64,000 nt of DNA from a virus. Position 1 is the first letter of the stretch. Every line of letters starts with the position of its first letter. The notes under the pieces are model-generated. The model was not told where the DNA came from, ran no database searches, and worked only from the letters and a program-made list of their open reading frames with translations. Shown in pieces: positions 5,704 through 20,661 of the stretch. The position numbers and the translations under genes are program-made. The stretch is from the IMG/VR virus record IMGVR_UViG_2162886007_000107, positions 124,001 through 188,000 of that record; one strand, given 5' to 3'.

Positions 5704-7899
5704 ATGGCATACCGCGAGATGGGCTTTGGTCTGCGTAACCAAGGCAATATGTTCAGCATGATCCGCGACCAGATCGCGGCCTCCGCTTTCAGCGCAGTAC
5801 AAGGTAACGAACAGTTCGGCGACTTCGCTTCGCAATTCGAGCTGAACCAGGTGCAAGGCGTTGAAAGCATGACCCTCAAAGGCATGTTGCACGAACGCCT
5901 CAGCACCCGTAACTACAACGCCTTCCACGGCGCCATGAACCGCGCAAGCGTTTCTCAGAGCGACATGGAAGACATCGTTGCTCGTACCGAAGACTTCTAC
6001 AAGACCGTTGGCGGTCTGGAAGGCTTCTCGATGCAGAACTTCAAGGGTTCGGAAGCCGACATCAAAGCGGCCAACATGACCCTGAACGCACAGTCTCACC
6101 TGCAGACCGCTGCTGCTGAAGCACTGTTCGCCACCGTCACCGTGAAGTACGAAGACGAAGGCGCCTCCCTGACCGTACGTGCTGCCGGCCTGGGTACTTA
6201 TGCCTACGGTAACACCGCCTGGCAACAAGCCTCCGATCTGAAGCCAATCTTCGGTCAACTGCGTACCGGCGAAATGTTCAAGGACGAAGTCCTGGCCATC
6301 TACCCTGTGTACCCTGATGACGCGAACGACGACACTCGTGAGCTGTTCGTCGACGCCGGTGTGGTTTCGCCATGGGGTGCTACCTACCCTGAAAACGACG
6401 CCTACGGTCGTGAAAACCACGACACCAGCTACCTGAAGGTTCCGGGCAACATCCCGAACTTCCTGGGTCTCTGCCAGGCTCCTGGTCAGCGTGCATGGAC
6501 TGCTACCGACGAAATCGAGTCCAACTCGATCATGGTCGAAGCCATCCAGGTTAGCGGTAAACTCGGTACTACCGACGTTACCTTCTTCATCAACACCCGT
6601 TCGATCTCGAACAACACCTTCATCACCTCGACCAACATCCAGTCTTCGGATGACCGTCGTCTGAACATCTACCTGAACCGCTTCAAAGGCTTCTCGGTTC
6701 TGGACAAGGATGGCAAGAACATCGGTGATACCCTGTTCAAGACCTTCAAGGACGCAGGCTTCGAACCGCTGCTGGACATTACCCTGACCGGTAACTTCCA
6801 ACGCCAGAAGAACACCCTGACTCTGAACGCTGGTCAGGTCGGTGTGATCGCTCTGGAAGAAATCACCACTGGTAACACCATCGACCGTGGCCGTGCAAAC
6901 GACCAACAGAAAGCGCTGCTGAAGTCGCTGACTGGCGGTATGGTTAACGGCGCTCGCGTTCGCGCGAATGTGAACAACATCTCGCGTGGTAACTTCGGCT
7001 ACCGCATCGAAGTGTTCGACACCATCAAGCACCTGCCGATCCATCGCGGTTCGCCGGTTTCGGTCAAGTACCCAATCTCGAAAGACGACGTTAACCAGGG
7101 TTCCCTGGACTACGCCATCAGCCAGATGTCGGTCGCGATCAACAACCAGTGCTCGAAGAAAGCGTTCGACATGGCTCAAGAGCACCTCCAGTACATCACC
7201 TCGATCGACGGCTACCCTGTTGTGTCCAACAACCAGGGCTCCAACGTTCTTCCTGGTATGCACTACGTGCAGGCTTCGGCCATCAACCGCAAGATCTCGC
7301 TGAAAGAATCCGTCTCCACTGTGGATTCCACCGGCATCTTCGAAGCGGTATCGGCCGTGTTCACCAACGAACTGAGCGACATCACTGCTGCCCTGGCTAC
7401 CAAGTCCGGCATCATGGCGATCGCTGAGTACGGCGGTACCGTAGCACCGAAGTGGAACATCATCGTGCACCAGAACCTGGCGCGCTTCCTGATGCACCTC
7501 GGCGATGCTCGTACCCTGGGTGCTGGCGTTGGCATGAAGGCGGTGGAAACCAACTTCACCAGCCAGATCGGTCAGATCCTGATCGTGACTGAGAACGACT
7601 CGACTTCCGACTACATCAACCCTCTGGGTGGTATCGGCGTCATGGTCTCGAAAGAGAACATCGTTGTTCAAGGTAACGTGACTCGTGATCAGCAAGACTT
7701 CGGTGTTGTCATGACCATGCCTACCTACAAGCACTGGGCGCTGAACCCAATCATCGGCTCGCTGGTGATCGAAGACGCGCACGAGTTCCTGGGCGACGAA
7801 GGTCTGCTGACCAAACTCGGCAAACAGAAAGTCGAGGTGCTGGGTCTGGCTGAAGGCCTGAAGGCAATCGCTGACGCACAGGCGCCAGTAACCCCGTAA
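5704..7899 (+). CDS. major capsid protein, phiKZ gp120-like
   Basis: A 731-residue protein that would form the icosahedral shell. Length, composition and neighbourhood match the phiKZ-type major head protein (about 750 residues), which is made as a longer precursor and trimmed by a phage protease. Its codon choice is strongly biased toward C/G-ending codons compared with nearby genes, as expected for the most abundant virion protein. No membrane segment or signal peptide. The N-terminal ~150 residues, helical and rich in Glu/Gln/Asn, could be the cleaved scaffold-like part; that is inference. The start is set by AAGGA before ATG 5704. The stop overlaps a 14-codon ORF (TAATG). A strong T-tailed hairpin follows at 7994. 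Family assignment is from recognition plus synteny, not from a search. Confidence 0.85.
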   Translation: MAYREMGFGLRNQGNMFSMIRDQIAASAFSAVQGNEQFGDFASQFELNQVQGVESMTLKGMLHERLSTRNYNAFHGAMNRASVSQSDMEDIVARTEDFYKTVGGLEGFSMQNFKGSEADIKAANMTLNAQSHLQTAAAEALFATVTVKYEDEGASLTVRAAGLGTYAYGNTAWQQASDLKPIFGQLRTGEMFKDEVLAIYPVYPDDANDDTRELFVDAGVVSPWGATYPENDAYGRENHDTSYLKVPGNIPNFLGLCQAPGQRAWTATDEIESNSIMVEAIQVSGKLGTTDVTFFINTRSISNNTFITSTNIQSSDDRRLNIYLNRFKGFSVLDKDGKNIGDTLFKTFKDAGFEPLLDITLTGNFQRQKNTLTLNAGQVGVIALEEITTGNTIDRGRANDQQKALLKSLTGGMVNGARVRANVNNISRGNFGYRIEVFDTIKHLPIHRGSPVSVKYPISKDDVNQGSLDYAISQMSVAINNQCSKKAFDMAQEHLQYITSIDGYPVVSNNQGSNVLPGMHYVQASAINRKISLKESVSTVDSTGIFEAVSAVFTNELSDITAALATKSGIMAIAEYGGTVAPKWNIIVHQNLARFLMHLGDARTLGAGVGMKAVETNFTSQIGQILIVTENDSTSDYINPLGGIGVMVSKENIVVQGNVTRDQQDFGVVMTMPTYKHWALNPIIGSLVIEDAHEFLGDEGLLTKLGKQKVEVLGLAEGLKAIADAQAPVTP

Positions 7900-7943
7900 T
7901 GAGCCTGCCCGATACGTACTACGGGGTACTCTCCCCGAAGTAA
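7899..7943 (+). CDS. 14-residue ORF coupled to capsid stop, carrying LPDTYYGVL peptide
   Basis: ATG at 7899 shares a base with the capsid TAA (TAATG), the classic layout for termination-reinitiation. It encodes MSLPDTYYGVLSPK and stops at 7943. The peptide matches, almost residue for residue, the four tandem LP[DA]TYYG[DER]L units that end the 773-residue protein at 18340-20661. Even the ending (LSPK here, LEPKK there) is similar, so a chance open frame is unlikely. An alternative is that a -1 shift near the C-run before the capsid stop adds it to some capsid molecules. The DNA also holds a CGGGG/CCCCG hairpin. Function unknown. Confidence 0.6.
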   Translation: MSLPDTYYGVLSPK

Positions 7944-7993
7944 AGAAACGATCAGGTAGGCAGTAACGCGGTTGTAGAGTAAATCCCCTCCTG

Positions 7994-8019
7994 CCCTACT
8001 CCCTTCACGGGGAGTAGGG
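7994..8019 (+). terminator. intrinsic terminator after capsid gene
   Basis: CCCTACTCCC (7994-8003) pairs with GGGAGTAGGG (8010-8019). A T-rich run ending in TTTTTTT follows by 8040. Confidence 0.85.
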
Positions 8020-8058
8020 TGGGTGGAGGTTTATTTTTTTGCATGTCCAAGAGTTTTT

Positions 8059-8074
8059 CAAACCTAAATTATTA
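8059..8074 (+). promoter_or_regulatory. early-type promoter candidate (CAAACCTAAATTATTA)
   Basis: It lies right after a T-tailed hairpin and 32 bases before ATG 8106. It matches the 54.8-kb element over CCTAAATTATTA, and both align with the TCTATATTACT elements at 13.3 and 51.6 kb. It is weaker than those because it lacks the exact TATATTAC core. Confidence 0.5.
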
Positions 8075-8105
8075 GGACAGATGAACTTATAATGGTATTC
8101 CTAAA

Positions 8106-9185
8106 ATGCATACCTTCCGTTTTAGTTATGAGTTGGTTAACGACTCTAAAGAGAACTGCATCACAGCCGTCTTCAAAGGGGGCCTTCGCTACACAGTACC
8201 CCATAGCAGACGTTCTGATTACTGTGATGAAAGGACTCACTTGAAGGTATCTTTGGAATCCGTCCATTTGGATCGGCTGGGTATTTTCGTAGAAGAAGCA
8301 ATGTCCAAGTTGGATGAGCGGATCCTTCTTTATTTGAAGAACGCTAAACGTGTTATTGAGGCAGAGCCTTATTACAACAAGGACAACGCAGTTCGTTTGA
8401 GCGTAGAGGTAGATTTGGGGGATCTGTTCGAGAACTCCAATGACCACAGTCTACATTCCGAACTGTTAGGTGTTACATGGTATATCGGCGAACCTCGGCT
8501 CAGAGTAAGAGCCAAGAACTCGATGAAGCGGCTCACTGAACAAGAAATGGTTAGAGCTTTTAATCATTGCGGCATGAGCATGAATATTTTCCTGGTAGAT
8601 CCAGGGCGAATCACTAACCCAATGTACGTGAACGTGCTGGGCAAGAGTGTGCAGGTACCGATTGCAGACTTCGAGGAAATCGATTGTGCTAGCCCGGGCC
8701 TGTTTATTACAAGGGGAGACCATAAAAATATACCAGAGAATGAATCTTACACTCTGGACGAATTAAAGGACAGTAAGCTACTAGAACGGCTGGGGGTTTT
8801 CTTGACCAAAGCAGAGTGTGACGCGAACGGTAACACCGAACGTTTCATACAGGCTGAGAAAAATGCCAAAGACCTTTCAAGAAGTCTGGAGGATCGTGAT
8901 AAACAACTGAAAGAGGCCCGCGAGAAACTGAAGAAGGCCGATAAGGAAATCGAAGATCTTCAGAAAACGATCGCCGAAGTCAAGTCTGACTATAAGAGCG
9001 ATATGCGTGAAATGAAGAATGAGTTGAAGCAAGCGGCTAGGGAAGCTAAACTTGATTCAAAGAAATCAGAATACAAGTTCGAGCAATCGAAATCCAAGAA
9101 TGAAATCTTGGCCTGGAGCGACATCCTCAAAGCAGGGGTCAACCTGGTTGGTTCTGTAGTGGGCCTTGGTAAGTTATTCAGTTAA
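8106..9185 (+). CDS. coiled-coil protein of unknown function (359 aa)
   Basis: ATG at 8106. The 359-residue protein has an alpha/beta N-terminal part (residues 1-230) with no motif I can name. A long charged coiled coil follows (about 240-330, rich in Lys, Glu and Asp with heptad spacing). The tail is short and hydrophobic (ILKAGVNLVGSVVGLGKLFS), which could anchor to a membrane or pack in an oligomer. An early-type promoter candidate lies 32 bases upstream. It is followed after 25 bases by the polymerase-like gene and is probably co-transcribed with it. Codon use is unlike the adjacent capsid gene. Confidence 0.82.
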   Translation: MHTFRFSYELVNDSKENCITAVFKGGLRYTVPHSRRSDYCDERTHLKVSLESVHLDRLGIFVEEAMSKLDERILLYLKNAKRVIEAEPYYNKDNAVRLSVEVDLGDLFENSNDHSLHSELLGVTWYIGEPRLRVRAKNSMKRLTEQEMVRAFNHCGMSMNIFLVDPGRITNPMYVNVLGKSVQVPIADFEEIDCASPGLFITRGDHKNIPENESYTLDELKDSKLLERLGVFLTKAECDANGNTERFIQAEKNAKDLSRSLEDRDKQLKEAREKLKKADKEIEDLQKTIAEVKSDYKSDMREMKNELKQAAREAKLDSKKSEYKFEQSKSKNEILAWSDILKAGVNLVGSVVGLGKLFS

Positions 9186-15278: not shown

Positions 15279-18200
15279 TTAGAACGGGTTGTAATGAGGG
15301 GAACTCGGATCATTTTTACCAGCAGCTTTCTCTTCTGCGGTAGCCGTGTCTTCTTCCTCTTCCTGCCCGGTGGCCTCAGACTTTTCGCCTTCTTCCTTAG
15401 GACCGGCCTCATCCTCTAACTCATCCTTGACTTCTTCACCCTCTACGACTGGCTCATCTTCAGCCGATGGCAATGCACCGTCTTCCAAAGGAGGTTCGTC
15501 AACTAAAGGAGCGTTTTCGTCAACAGGAAGTTGAGTACCATCACTACCATCCAGACCATCTTCCAAGCCACCTTCTTCGCCTTCACCCAACAGCTTGAGG
15601 AGTTTCTTAACTTCCTTGCTATCTTTGAACGAACTTTCCGTTTCTTTGAGAGCAGTGAGGTATTGAACAAGGAACTCTTGAGCGTTGAGTTTCTGGTGAA
15701 CGATGCCTTGAACCAGGGAAGCAATACCGCCACCTTTACCATCGTTGACAATGTCGTCGAATGGCATCGGGATGTTGTAACGACGGAATGCTTCTGCCAA
15801 GAAGTAAGCTTTAACGTGAGCGGTGATTTCTTCTGGGCTAGCCAGAGTAGTCTGAAGACCAAGAGATGCAGCAACGTGCTTCATGGACTCTTGGGTAGAC
15901 GCGATCTCCATCCACTTAGCAACCAGCTGATCAATTGCATCCAGTTGGTTACGCAGCTTATCTGTGGTCTCAATACTGCTACGCTCAGGGAACGAGCAAT
16001 ACACAGCCGTCAAGAAGTCCGACAGGAGGGTTTTGATAATTACATCATCTTCACCTTCCAATGGAGTCTTACTATCAGTTTTCCACAGCTTCTTGTTATC
16101 ACGGATGCAGTTAGCCATTTCAGTAAGCACCGGAGCATTCACACGAATGTGCTTACGCTGGTGATCAGTGATTTGGATTGCCAGACTACTTTGCCAGTTG
16201 GCCGCCTGGTTACTTACCATCTCGTGTTCAGTAACTGCTTCAATCTTGAAGTTGTTACTGTCGTCCTGTACATCCAACCAGCTCCGTGGAGTGGAGAAGT
16301 AGTTGGAGATATCGTTCAGAACTTTGGTGCGACTTGCTTCATCAACCGGCTGGAAGAAGTTCTTCTCCATACGTTCCAGGCTAATCTCAGGCATTGCTAC
16401 CAGAGGGTTCTCACCTGGGTTAACCCGAACAGTAAGTGCCGAGTTACGCATGGACTCCACAATCATCGGAACAGATAGTTGAGCTGTGTTCATCAGACTG
16501 TGAATCTTCGGGTTCTGGTCAAAGAACGCAGCACGAGCAATTTCTGCCGTGTTGGTTGGATCGCCATCATCCTTACCGTGGGTAATAGTCATCAGCGTAT
16601 GAGGCTGAGCACGTTCCAGGTTAGCCAGGGTATCTGCAATGTCGAATGCAGCCAGACGAGCAATGTGCATTTTGGCCAACTGAGTAAGGGACTGACCAGT
16701 GCCCAAACGGTTGTACTTCAATGCAATGTAGGTAACTGCCTCACCTGGTACATAAAGGCAACGCACACCTTGACGACGGAAGATGCGAGAAAGCCAAATC
16801 TTGTTGGTCTCTTCGTCGAGAGTAATGCTGATGTTTTCAGCTTTGTCACTCAGGATAGAAGAAGTCCAGCGCTTGATCAAACTGGCCTCGGCCAGCTGAG
16901 CAAACTCAGACATGTCAAACTCACACTCCTTACCTTCCTGGATAGTCCGCAGGCTACTGATCAAACCGTTCTCACTACCGGACTTAGGCTTGTTAGCAAC
17001 ACCGCCTTTGGTCTTGGAGATCGATTGGTAATACTCGGGGTCAACAGTGTTCTTGAGGAACGTACCGTCTTCTGGGTCAACCAGGAAGATGTAGTCACAC
17101 TTGGCCTTGTTCTGCCCGTTGTAGTGAATTGGGATTACCGCCTCACTAGGAATGTGCCACACCAGACCACGACCATAAGGAGGAACCGACAAGGTGTCCA
17201 AAGGCTTAACGAACTGCATGGATTGGTGACGAATGTTGCGACTACGATAGATTTCGTAGGCTGCATCAATCACTGCCTTTTCATCCAGGTTCTCAGTGGT
17301 CGCTTCAGGACCAGCTGCCTTCTTCTGTTTCTTGTTGGTTTCGCCGTCTTTGATCGGATCACGACTGCGTTCTGGATCTTTACGACCAGCACCGCCTTTC
17401 ATGGAGGTGTCGACAATGAAGTCAAGATCTTCCACACCCATTACAGTGTTGATCGAACGAAGACGATCATTCTCTTTCAACTTAGGCTGGTACAAGCAGG
17501 CCGGGTTGTCAGTGAAGGTAATGTTGAAAAGGTTTTCCGAATCCAGGTCACCAAACAGGTTGAACTCCAGCTCGTCTTCAACAGCTCTGCTGGTGAACAA
17601 TTGCTCCAAACCACTAACACGACCATTGCTGACCTTCTTGGCATTAGGGTTACGAATCAGACCAAGGTTCTTCAGACGAACTTCTTTGTTGTCTACCAAA
17701 CCGTACTCATGACTCAGAGCATCAATCGCCTTACGACGATAGTCCTCGTAATTCTCGTTACCAGTCCGTTGGTGACGTGGGTCGATTTCACTACCATTGA
17801 TCAAGTAATCAAGACCAGGACGACTCAAGTTGAACAGGCAATAACTACCAGTGTTCCACAGGACATCGTTGATAATAGTGCTTAAATCCTGCTCGATCTT
17901 ATAGTTGTTGGTGAAGTATTCTTCCCAAATCTTGAGCAGTTCAGTGTGTAGCGCGGTATTCTTGAACTTGCTCGGAATCGTATCGTAAGTAAGAATCTTG
18001 TCCTGCTTCCCGTTGGGGTAGAGCAGGATCGTGTTCCAGATAAGCTCCGCCTTATCAATGTAAGGAGTAATCGCTCGAAGGTCAGTAACCGCATTGATGT
18101 TGTTACTGATAATGTCGCTGAGTCGCTGTAGCTTATACGGGTTAACTACGTCAGTCCCACCGATGTCTCCTTTGTCTGGAGTAACACCGTTACGAGGAAC

Positions 18201-18314
18201 TGCGTTACGCAAAGTGGCTTGCGCAAATGCGGGCAAGTTGCTGAAATCCTTTCGCACTTTGGTGTAATCTGCGCGATTATTGCCCAGCGTAGTCCCTCTT
18301 GATCTAAGAGTCAT
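15279..18314 (-). CDS. portal vertex-like protein (1011 aa)
   Basis: A 1011-residue protein likely to form the dodecameric ring for DNA passage at one capsid vertex. The middle part has the layout of T4 gp20-type portals: a YRSRNI/HIP segment, then EAVTYIALKYNRLGTGQSL, a long helix with R and D residues, and a region before an ITDHQRKHIRVNAPVL helix. The C-terminal ~110 residues are very acidic (Glu/Asp/Pro-rich) and probably disordered. A Lys/Glu-rich loop near residue 320 looks like an insertion. It is larger than classic portals (about 520 residues), as in phiKZ relatives. It is leftward amid rightward structural genes; only 25 bases separate it from the divergent neighbour. Assigned by overall pattern; another large head protein is the alternative. 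Confidence 0.62.
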   Translation of the reverse strand: MTLRSRGTTLGNNRADYTKVRKDFSNLPAFAQATLRNAVPRNGVTPDKGDIGGTDVVNPYKLQRLSDIISNNINAVTDLRAITPYIDKAELIWNTILLYPNGKQDKILTYDTIPSKFKNTALHTELLKIWEEYFTNNYKIEQDLSTIINDVLWNTGSYCLFNLSRPGLDYLINGSEIDPRHQRTGNENYEDYRRKAIDALSHEYGLVDNKEVRLKNLGLIRNPNAKKVSNGRVSGLEQLFTSRAVEDELEFNLFGDLDSENLFNITFTDNPACLYQPKLKENDRLRSINTVMGVEDLDFIVDTSMKGGAGRKDPERSRDPIKDGETNKKQKKAAGPEATTENLDEKAVIDAAYEIYRSRNIRHQSMQFVKPLDTLSVPPYGRGLVWHIPSEAVIPIHYNGQNKAKCDYIFLVDPEDGTFLKNTVDPEYYQSISKTKGGVANKPKSGSENGLISSLRTIQEGKECEFDMSEFAQLAEASLIKRWTSSILSDKAENISITLDEETNKIWLSRIFRRQGVRCLYVPGEAVTYIALKYNRLGTGQSLTQLAKMHIARLAAFDIADTLANLERAQPHTLMTITHGKDDGDPTNTAEIARAAFFDQNPKIHSLMNTAQLSVPMIVESMRNSALTVRVNPGENPLVAMPEISLERMEKNFFQPVDEASRTKVLNDISNYFSTPRSWLDVQDDSNNFKIEAVTEHEMVSNQAANWQSSLAIQITDHQRKHIRVNAPVLTEMANCIRDNKKLWKTDSKTPLEGEDDVIIKTLLSDFLTAVYCSFPERSSIETTDKLRNQLDAIDQLVAKWMEIASTQESMKHVAASLGLQTTLASPEEITAHVKAYFLAEAFRRYNIPMPFDDIVNDGKGGGIASLVQGIVHQKLNAQEFLVQYLTALKETESSFKDSKEVKKLLKLLGEGEEGGLEDGLDGSDGTQLPVDENAPLVDEPPLEDGALPSAEDEPVVEGEEVKDELEDEAGPKEEGEKSEATGQEEEEDTATAEEKAAGKNDPSSPHYNPF

Positions 18315-18339: not shown

Positions 18340-20661
18340 ATGAATAATGCCGATAAAGATAAGTTCTATCGGGATACCTTTGCATTAGCCCGGACAATGA
18401 TCGTAAAGATCGAGCCCTTGGCTAACAGGTATAACCAGGCTTTAGAACGAACAGGGCATGTTGTTTCGCAGGACAAACGTACCTGGCGTTATTACATGAA
18501 CCTTAATGGGGACTATCACGAAACTGATGAACCCATGATGATCCGTTCTTTGGATACGGATGATGAGATTCTCTTCAGTAAAGAAAACCTCAAAACTCAC
18601 ATTAATACCTTCCGAGAGTACTCTCGGGGGGAGTACTGGTTTAAACGTCTGTCTGAGCGTTACCCAGCTCAGCCCGTACTCATCCGCGGTATTCTGTCGC
18701 CCATCCCGTTTGACGAGACAATAGGCGCCGAAGACTATAAGATCCTCCGGTACAACGAGAAATTGGTGCTCCCCAACGAGACCCAACTGATCCCTAATCT
18801 TCAGACTTTCATCAAGTCAGAAGTGGAGCAGACGTTCAATACCGAATACATGATCACTGATGACTTGTTCCTGTCGTTGATGGTCAAACTGCTTTACGCG
18901 GATATCATTAAAGGTATCCATGTGATTCGTATCGAGAACATGTACACTCGACACAGTCACGATTTTTATATTTGGAGTCACATTGATTCCTTCGGGGAGT
19001 TTTCCCAATATAAGAATAGTCTCAGCTTTGAACAAACGATGTGGCTTTTCCGCAACATCGCCTGGATCAAAAACAACCCAGGTCAACAGTTCACCTTTGA
19101 CAAGTTGATGCACAACCTGTTGAGCAAGGCCAGAATTCCTTTGGCTAAGTTTGACATGGTAGAAGGTACCGAAACCCAGCTGGAGGACTTAACCCCCACC
19201 CCGCTGTATCGTCACCTCAACCTCAACTTGCTTGACGACTATGGTCTTGAACCGACCTACATCGACACAGCCGCCCTGATCCTTAAGCAGCAACCTCTGG
19301 CTAAGGACAACCTTTCCCAGATGGCTATTTATCAGGATGATGCGCTGGCTAAAGGTAAACGTAGTCTGCACTCCGAGTTGCCTACCAAGGTGCTCGAATC
19401 CAGCATGAAGGATTACACCAACCGACACGCAGACACATTGATGTCTGTTCTGTTGAACGAGTGGATCTATCTGGCTGGTAAAGGTAAGTTCCAGGGTCGC
19501 GTTATTGTTGCTGATCCAAAGACTGGTCGACAAGTACGTTTGCCAGTGGCTGATGCATACAACATCTGGAAATACCTGGTCGATTATGCAAGTGGTAATG
19601 AGCCGGTCAAAATCTGCCCTGCTTACTACCAGAACGTCATGAAGATCACTCCTCCGAGTATTGGGGAGATCATCCATGTTGGCGGTAAGGATTTCATCTA
19701 CCCGCTTTACTTGGCTTACGACATCCGCAACATCTGGTTCCCTGTGGCTAACTTTGTTGCTCCAGATTACCTCGTGCAGTACGCTATCGAAGTGTACGAC
19801 GCGATGTGGAAACACAAGAAGTTGTACAGTCAGTTCTATGATCTCAACAAACGTGCTCGCGTCAAAAACGCTTGTAAGACGTTGTATGACTCAGGGGTAG
19901 TTCAGCTCGGGACGTTCACCAATTACGCTGATTTGATTTCCAGTTACAAGTTCGATTTCTCTGATTACACTGCTGCTGAGTGTAGAGACTTTGCTTGGGA
20001 CATCTTCAAACGTGTCACTGGTTGGGATACCAATCAGCAACCAACCATGCGAGTCAAGCAGAGTGATTTGCTCGACATCATGATGAAGCTGTCGTCTTAC
20101 AGCATTCACGTTATCAAGGAAATGGATGACGGGGCTACTGTAGACGAACTCATTAATGAGAACTTGGTAGGTGATAGCCGTTGGGTTGGTTTGGGTAACA
20201 AACTCGAAGCCGACTTCTCCAACGTTAAACCTACACTGCATCCAACGATTGATGGGATCTATGCCCAGAAGTCTCTGACCAAACTCCTGTCATCGCCTCA
20301 CCCTACGGTTGAAGCGGTAATGGAACTGAAGTTAAGACTTGAGGACAACCGTCACATTAAACGTGTGCAGCTGGAGACAGACCCAGTTAAGTACGCATTG
20401 CGTCTTACCCCACGTCGTTACTTGCGTCGGGTTTATGGTGATGAGCCAGTACCAGAGATCGATACTCTCCCAGATACCTACTACGGGGATCTGAGCGACC
20501 CTATCGTTATCGATGATCTGCCTGACACCTATTACGGAGAACTCGGGGAAACTGTTACTCTTGATGATTTGCCGGCCACTTACTACGGTGACCTGAGTGA
20601 TGAAATCATTATTGACGAACTCCCTGCTACGTACTACGGTCGATTGGAGCCCAAGAAATGA
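18340..20661 (+). CDS. large structural-type protein with four C-terminal LPxTYYGxL repeats (773 aa)
   Basis: ATG at 18340 is preferred to an in-frame TTG at 18328; neither has a good ribosome-binding site. Residues 1-710 are a mixed, mostly helical body without any motif I recognise. The last 65 residues hold four copies of a 17-residue unit, LP[DA]TYYG[DER]L followed by an acidic stretch and a short Ile/Val strand. The fourth is cut short and ends LEPKK. The same peptide stands alone after the capsid gene at 7899-7943. The gene is divergent from the portal-like gene and coupled (ATGA) to the next. It is likely a virion or head-assembly protein, with the repeats acting as a multivalent docking tail (inference). 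Confidence 0.8.
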   Translation: MNNADKDKFYRDTFALARTMIVKIEPLANRYNQALERTGHVVSQDKRTWRYYMNLNGDYHETDEPMMIRSLDTDDEILFSKENLKTHINTFREYSRGEYWFKRLSERYPAQPVLIRGILSPIPFDETIGAEDYKILRYNEKLVLPNETQLIPNLQTFIKSEVEQTFNTEYMITDDLFLSLMVKLLYADIIKGIHVIRIENMYTRHSHDFYIWSHIDSFGEFSQYKNSLSFEQTMWLFRNIAWIKNNPGQQFTFDKLMHNLLSKARIPLAKFDMVEGTETQLEDLTPTPLYRHLNLNLLDDYGLEPTYIDTAALILKQQPLAKDNLSQMAIYQDDALAKGKRSLHSELPTKVLESSMKDYTNRHADTLMSVLLNEWIYLAGKGKFQGRVIVADPKTGRQVRLPVADAYNIWKYLVDYASGNEPVKICPAYYQNVMKITPPSIGEIIHVGGKDFIYPLYLAYDIRNIWFPVANFVAPDYLVQYAIEVYDAMWKHKKLYSQFYDLNKRARVKNACKTLYDSGVVQLGTFTNYADLISSYKFDFSDYTAAECRDFAWDIFKRVTGWDTNQQPTMRVKQSDLLDIMMKLSSYSIHVIKEMDDGATVDELINENLVGDSRWVGLGNKLEADFSNVKPTLHPTIDGIYAQKSLTKLLSSPHPTVEAVMELKLRLEDNRHIKRVQLETDPVKYALRLTPRRYLRRVYGDEPVPEIDTLPDTYYGDLSDPIVIDDLPDTYYGELGETVTLDDLPATYYGDLSDEIIIDELPATYYGRLEPKK
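20467..20661 (+). repeat. four tandem 51-bp coding repeats
   Basis: Units start at 20467, 20518, 20569 and 20620, exactly 51 bases (17 codons) apart. Protein identity is high (LPxTYYGxL) while synonymous codons differ, so the peptide rather than the DNA has been conserved. Confidence 0.9.

Follow-up and report, generated by a model that had tools for sequence, protein, structure and literature searches.

In bacteriophages T7 and T3, genes 10A and 10B are linked by a -1 frameshift late in the major capsid gene, which involves a slippery site and a downstream structure (PMC4283147) and reaches rates near 10% (quoted in PMC9965538). Slippage by -1 has also been described near the natural stop of Kuravirus-like capsid genes (YF01, phiEco32 group), where it occurs at GGGAAAG (PMC9965538), and a conserved -1 frameshift sets the product ratio of the lambda G/GT-type tail assembly chaperone (quoted in PMC9965538). 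The locus described here resembles 10A/10B in that, judged from sequence alone, a -1 shift late in the capsid gene would give a minor C-terminally extended form, but the T7 extension is long whereas this one has 11-19 residues, it consists of a short linear motif found again at the C-terminus of other virion-associated proteins, and it belongs to phiKZ-like jumbo myoviruses that use another slip sequence. With the Kuravirus-like capsid it would share a -1 slip at a heptamer close to the capsid stop, although the extension there is not a short motif but a large region that includes an Ig-like domain and brings the protein to 892 aa in total. The likeness to lambda G/GT is a conserved -1 frameshift in phage morphogenesis, although in a tail chaperone gene rather than a capsid gene, and we know of no shared linear motif in that system. 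Capsid frameshifts of the T7 10B and Kuravirus type are known; what differs here is the very short extension, the shared motif and the phage group.

Taken as a whole, the data are best explained by programmed -1 frameshifting that yields a minor tagged capsid protein, the motif being a docking tag shared with other proteins, a reading to which we give a probability of about 0.8. No gene of phiKZ-like jumbo phages is used more often as a marker than the major capsid gene, yet its proposed second product is unannotated in the public records examined. If the reading is correct, the locus would be a testable example of why phages frameshift the capsid gene, a question that has stood since T7 10B, and the purpose would be to present a short docking motif in a fixed proportion rather than to add a domain. 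One docking tag on several parts of the virus particle would be a conserved, unannotated strategy in this giant bacteriophage family.

The capsid gene and the -1 frame across its stop

The window, that is the whole 64,000-nt stretch analysed, represents positions 124001-188000 of the 236,430-base virus record IMGVR_UViG_2162886007_000107, and its source is a phiKZ-like jumbo phage. The features at the end of the capsid gene are as follows.

5704-7899, + strand: major capsid protein (MCP) gene, zero frame, 731 aa, phiKZ gp120 family, homologue of EL gp78 (profile and sequence comparison)
7887-7896, + strand: putative slip region AGTAACCCCG, codons GTA ACC CCG followed by TAA (from the position of the heptamer in 20 of 28 relatives)
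7896-7943, + strand: predicted -1 frame extension VMSLPDTYYGVLSPK, including its stop TAA at 7941-7943 (codon-position bias and synonymous changes in the -1 frame)
7899-7901, + strand: ATG overlapping the capsid stop as TAATG (sequence; one codon more, in frame, than in L155 and L163)
7903-7961, + strand: predicted stem-loop, candidate frameshift stimulator (folding z)
7905-7931, + strand: motif LPDTYYGVL in the -1 frame (sequence; codon comparison)
7994-8041, + strand: intrinsic-terminator-like hairpin CCCTACTCCC/GGGAGTAGGG with a T run, end of the capsid transcript (sequence)

The MCP matched Pfam PF25620 PhiKZ_MCP over the capsid domain (E = 8.7e-136, 454 bits, cut-off 27) as well as phrog_3231 (major head protein), and was 53-59% identical to the MCPs of Pseudomonas phage EL and Erwinia phage RisingSun. 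The initial annotation had reported a 14-codon ORF starting on the last base of the capsid stop, and this ORF is real: MSLPDTYYGVLSPK, at 7899-7943 in the -1 frame, is opened by an ATG that uses the last A of the capsid TAA.

For comparison, related capsid loci whose 3' end is intact were collected, 34 in all with 28 distinct -1 ORFs, including those of EL, RisingSun, FishSpeaker and metagenomic jumbo phages. The motif was encoded in the -1 frame across the capsid stop in every one of the 34 (28 distinct), and the MCPs bearing the extension were 44-73% identical to that of the window. As these EL-like loci come from isolates and metagenomes and from independent assemblies, the idea that the window's motif arose by chance or as an assembly artefact is refuted, its residual probability being negligible. 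The extension was 11-19 residues long with a motif of the form PxT[YDNFS]YGxL; examples are VSLPDTYYGVLKSFT (L155), VSLPSTYYGELSPGG (L163), LSPTNYGTLTVGE (L173), VSPANYGRLEYPELP in EL, where the peptide reads ...SVSPANYGRLEYPELP, LIPSTNYGRLG in RisingSun and INPYYYGNLGTDVNQDVGV in FishSpeaker. The capsid genes of pTD1, Vibrio phage 5 TSL-2019, Miami, PDCC-1, SXP01, OBP and pAEv1810 had neither heptamer nor extension, and no capsid relative was found in the genome contigs searched.

To examine the reading frame, pairwise single-base codon differences were counted among 25 distinct motif segments. The -1 frame gave 709 synonymous and 273 non-synonymous differences versus 182/536 and 111/586 in the other two frames, and variation in the -1 frame was lowest at the second codon position and highest at the third. 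Changes in the motif are mostly synonymous in the -1 frame only, and the direction is clear even though the pairs are not independent. Absence of the peptide from close relatives, with frame-independent base changes, had been named in the initial annotation as evidence against its proposal; the opposite was found, with the motif in 34/34 loci and a synonymous excess confined to the -1 frame.

A free-standing peptide made from TAATG, as proposed at first, was not supported as a general mechanism, since no start codon and ORF are conserved together. Only the window, L159 and L169, 3 of the 28 distinct sequences, had an ATG at this position, whereas ATG, GTG and TTG were all absent from the -1 frame ahead of the motif in 23; two of these 23 are EL-type, in which the first extension codon, counted with the motif, is GTG, so that 21/28 are without any start. 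Furthermore, the -1 frame was often closed by a stop just upstream of the slip site, and in L171, L184, L189 and FishSpeaker it was closed at the 5' edge of the heptamer itself (TGA or TAA, then CCC AAA). With the start codon mostly absent and the frame closed upstream, the peptide would be reachable only via a shift from the capsid frame. The -1 frame is thus kept as protein without independent initiation, and the alternative already mentioned in the initial annotation, a frameshift extending a fraction of the capsid molecules, appears to be the better fit to this frame, which is conserved but mostly lacks a start.

No joined capsid CDS is annotated in the records of EL, RisingSun, FishSpeaker, MIZ-Pa99 and PaBa1, and a search of openly accessible papers found nothing on a second capsid product or a capsid frameshift in phage EL. 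In mass spectrometry of RisingSun lysate the capsid protein gp83 was detected with 75% total coverage; it is listed simply as the MCP, and frameshifting is not mentioned (PMC6034870). It was also noticed that in PQ516283.1 (phage vB_PQ1, L032) the capsid and PHIKZ128-like genes lie in many pieces with one stretch duplicated, which looks like sequencing or assembly errors in the record.

Putative slip site and predicted stem-loop

A canonical heptamer in the correct phase, ending 1-3 codons ahead of the stop, was present in 20/28 distinct sequences at position -10, -13 or -16. It was mostly C CCA AAC, with C CCA AAU in FishSpeaker and A AAA AAC in L156 and L158. Four further sequences had A AAC CCG, while the window, L160, L161 and L183 had A ACC CCG; an X XXY YYZ heptamer in the zero frame is a property of the clade that these last four do not share. 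Within six of these genomes, such a heptamer at most 5 codons from the stop occurs in only about 0.3-2% of ORFs of at least 100 aa.

Most sequences also contained a long hairpin that starts a few bases past the heptamer and encloses the extension codons, the stem beginning about 3-10 nt past the heptamer, in agreement with the 5-9 nt downstream position of a stimulatory structure. Folding over 80 nt gave a mean z of -3.73 for the 28 sites vs -0.42 for 168 capsid coding windows from the same loci, and z was under -2 at 89% of sites vs 9% of control windows (p = 4e-15, which overstates independence because the sequences are related); the folds of L173, L174 and L189 were weak. In the window, the arms GCCUGCC (7903-7909) and GGUAGGC (7955-7961) form a stem with more pairing within, which begins 6 nt past the CCG codon and folds with z -3.3 over 95 nt and z -3.9 over 80 nt. 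Stem sequences were wholly different between lineages, as seen in the arms CCCUUCAACC/GGUUGAAGGG of RisingSun, AACCCUUAUUAC/GUAAUAAGGGUU of FishSpeaker and UCCGUGAG/CUCACGGA of EL. Covariation was sought in the close L160-L178 group and none was found, the stem hardly varying there and the variation being too small to count.

The strong stem at the same place and the terminator-like hairpin directly downstream could suggest that a role at the RNA or DNA level preserves the region, such as a stem before the terminator or a processing site, and that the -1 peptide is an untranslated by-product. This is very improbable, as the amino-acid motif is constant while the stem sequences differ completely between lineages, the synonymous excess is seen in the -1 frame only, and the peptide is found again in two unrelated proteins of these phages. 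The relatives have a hairpin at the same place as the window's terminator-like one, and an Rfam search of window positions 7700-8200 returned chance-level miRNA matches only. Further downstream, at 8056-8075 and upstream of the gene next after the capsid gene, lies a phage-promoter-like TTTTTCAAACCTAAATTATTA; EL has 7 forward-strand copies of the related TTTYAAACCTACATTAT, one of which is an annotated putative phage promoter, and 0 on the reverse strand.

At the window's own site, CCCAAACCCG has changed to AGTAACCCCG; compared with L155 and L163, the window has also acquired an additional in-frame codon (ATG). The nearest rows in the capsid tree (L155, L156 and L159) retain canonical heptamers, and the loss in the window is therefore recent. 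The window's GTAACCCCGTAA is also present in L183 and in the L160/L161 group, which occupy separate parts of the MCP tree, and GTAAACCCGTAA is present in L162, L164, L167 and L178; a putative non-canonical slip site has arisen repeatedly. Since L160, L161 and L183 have the GTAACCCCGTAA site and a conserved extension without a start codon, production of the extension there would require frameshifting at this site, and the simplest reading of these sequences is that GUA A(A/C)C CCG UAA would be a working -1 site in itself.

For the window's phage, termination-reinitiation at TAATG could instead give a separate 14-residue product, in place of or besides a frameshift product, that would act as a regulator or competitor for the partner of the motif. 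Such a product would agree with the TAATG overlap and the short complete ORF, with the loss of the canonical heptamer in the window, and with the ATG found there in L159 and L169 as well. However, there is no evident Shine-Dalgarno sequence upstream of the window's ATG, L159 and L169 retain CCCAAAC beside their ATG at TAATG, indicating that the ATG is not required, the extension is conserved without a start codon in the three relatives that share GTAACCCCGTAA, and the window retains the stem-loop. We regard reinitiation as improbable.

For frameshifting, we propose that, as translation nears the capsid stop, a fraction of the ribosomes slips back by one nucleotide and appears, from the sequence, to add a tail with the docking motif. 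The conserved site, the stem, the selection on the -1 frame and the sharing of the motif are observed here, whereas the shift itself, its rate, incorporation into virions, docking and the partner are inferred. In the clade the slip would take place at the heptamer (usually C CCA AAC), 1-3 codons ahead of the stop, helped by the downstream stem-loop, in which the codons of the extension lie. Where the site is the derived GUA ACC CCG UAA, as in the window and a few relatives, slipping would probably occur at the last Pro codon adjoining the stop; with the stop codon in the A site, the Pro-tRNA perhaps exchanges CCG for CCC. The product would be a minor capsid protein with 11-19 additional residues carrying PxT[YDNFS]YGxL; once incorporated into the virion, it would present the motif to one common virion partner, and frameshifting would set the number of capsid subunits showing it. 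That the clade makes a minor extended capsid protein by programmed -1 frameshifting is highly probable. The window's phage probably does so as well. The absence of a canonical heptamer in the window counts against frameshifting, as do the weak folds of L173, L174 and L189, the lack of covariation in the L160-L178 group, the silence of the RisingSun mass spectrometry paper on a frameshift, and the retention of the extension in G003, G016 and FishSpeaker beside a PHIKZ128-like protein without the motif.

The motif in other virion-associated proteins

The initial annotation had also noted the same peptide at the end of a 773-residue protein at 18.3-20.7 kb; the four copies of LP[DA]TYYGxL were confirmed exactly, and the features concerned are listed below.

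15279-18314, - strand: portal protein, PHIKZ129 homologue, divergent neighbour of the 773-aa gene (9xpe_M PHIKZ129, 11ed_J Portal Protein gp36)
18340-20661, + strand: 773-aa virion protein, PHIKZ128 / EL gp104 homologue, phrog_3222 (PDB and phrog matches)
20467-20493, 20518-20544, 20569-20595 and 20620-20646, + strand: four motif copies in the C-terminal tail of the 773-aa protein (sequence)
G000 204969-205550 (L054:18969-19550), outside the window: EL gp147-like protein, ending in IPDTDYGQL (sequence)

A six-frame scan of the phage's own whole 236-kb genome, G001, EL, RisingSun, FishSpeaker and G009 placed nearly all occurrences of the motif in three locations, namely the MCP -1 extension, the tails of the 773-aa homologues and the C-terminus of one family of about 200 aa; the strict motif had 3 matches in total in the same sequences reversed. 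The shared short linear motif suggested at first is thus supported, and it joins the capsid extension with two protein families.

In the 773-aa protein the copies read, in order, LPDTYYGDL, LPDTYYGEL, LPATYYGDL and LPATYYGRL. Sequence homology places it in the PHIKZ128 family, with PDB matches to 9xqs_C (PHIKZ128, E = 4e-76), 36za_sR (E = 1.6e-79) and 11lx_Bh. Entry 36za contains six chains of the PHIKZ128 homologue and twelve portal chains, and these chain numbers suggest that the protein sits in the neck. Residues 1-596 are homologous to PHIKZ128 (PDB 9xqs), whereas the motif tail lies outside the homologous part and is restricted, among the homologues tested, to the EL-like clade. Within the family the tail carries from 0 (G003, G016 and FishSpeaker) to 4 copies; these three phages keep the capsid extension while their PHIKZ128-like protein is without the motif, so that the tail is not an obligatory counterpart of the extension. 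In L014/L019 (G003) and L259 (G016) the protein stops just ahead of the motif tail, as natural tail losses. A search of openly accessible papers for PHIKZ128 found nothing.

The third family comprises EL gp147-like proteins, which end in PxT[YDNF]YGxL in 19/19 genomes with a homologue found, metagenomic genomes included: IPETDYGRL in EL gp147, IPDTDYGDL in RisingSun gp205 and gp206 and IPATDYGHL in FishSpeaker, the last copy in G022 and G023 being IPPTNYKQL. RisingSun gp206 has been detected by mass spectrometry of phage lysate (PMC6034870). Members are 21-58% identical, and the motif is their most conserved part. The homologues came from record searches, scans of viral contigs having given no match. 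A structural model (pLDDT 92) had no PDB match with E under 0.001 in a fold search, and the viral proteins it matched came from related jumbo phages and were either uncharacterised or virion structural proteins. PHIKZ128 homologues of pTD1, TSL5, Miami, PDCC-1, SXP01, OBP and pAEv1810 have no motif in their tails, and no gp147-like match was found in these phages. The extension, the gp147-like protein and, mostly, the tail repeats occur together as a set, with lineage-wise variants: YGRL followed by F/Y-P-E in EL and G018, and TYYG in the lineages of the window, G001 and L163.

Because the same motif ends the capsid extension, the PHIKZ128-like protein and the gp147-like family, it is most likely a docking motif, and we consider it rather likely that the extension would serve to dock a partner shared with the other two proteins. 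Frameshifting could also be real without the extension being a docking tag, the extension marking or tuning extended subunits for assembly, turnover or curvature, and the likeness among the proteins reflecting one shared contact inside the head, such as capsid binding. The extended form of T7 10B need not be essential, a precedent for this, and the motif lies in flexible C-terminal tails of all three proteins. Its residues are nevertheless conserved across MCPs 44-73% identical to that of the window, and no part of the gp147-like proteins is better conserved; this favours recognition of the motif as such and makes a non-docking role unlikely.

A wider version of docking is conceivable but somewhat doubtful, namely a virion-wide docking code in EL-like jumbo phages together with a move of the slip to GUA ACC CCG UAA in the window's lineage and at least two others. 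One reader (e.g. a fibre, decoration or capsid-docking factor) would recognise PxT[YDNF]YGxL on frameshifted capsid subunits, the neck protein (0-4 copies) and gp147-like proteins, with frameshift rate and copy number setting how many readers are held per site. The motif in three proteins is a ready bait for a common partner in a group in which capsid docking and assembly are little understood. A phylogenetic profile for a motif reader returned EL gp153, a Kelch-like propeller (PF24681), and several unknowns; as many of the listed ORFs are antisense artefacts, the profile is a lead only, and EL gp153 a weak one.

The gp147-like gene lies directly 3' of the gene for a phage GroEL-like chaperonin in EL (after gp146), G000, G001, G005, G006 and G009. 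A role of the motif as a chaperonin (GroEL) tag, considered from the gp146/gp147 adjacency, is not favoured, since chaperonins occur in 15/17 relatives, motif-bearing or not.

In G001 only, there is a fourth carrier, a 355-aa adhesin-like protein (...YRPVLEL..., L057:9567-10634) that ends in ELPPTYYEILKGE. A sister paralogue of gp147 without the motif was found in L083, L092, L094-L096, L098, L243, L249 and L250; it has another conserved C-terminus, [YF][DN]Gx[YF]x[YHF]DGT[LI][TS]Y, a degenerate form of which also ends a RisingSun virion structural protein (L093). On the minus strand of L055 (G000:206001-226000), several adjacent proteins have GWRPL.E-type C-termini and are probably receptor-binding fibre modules.
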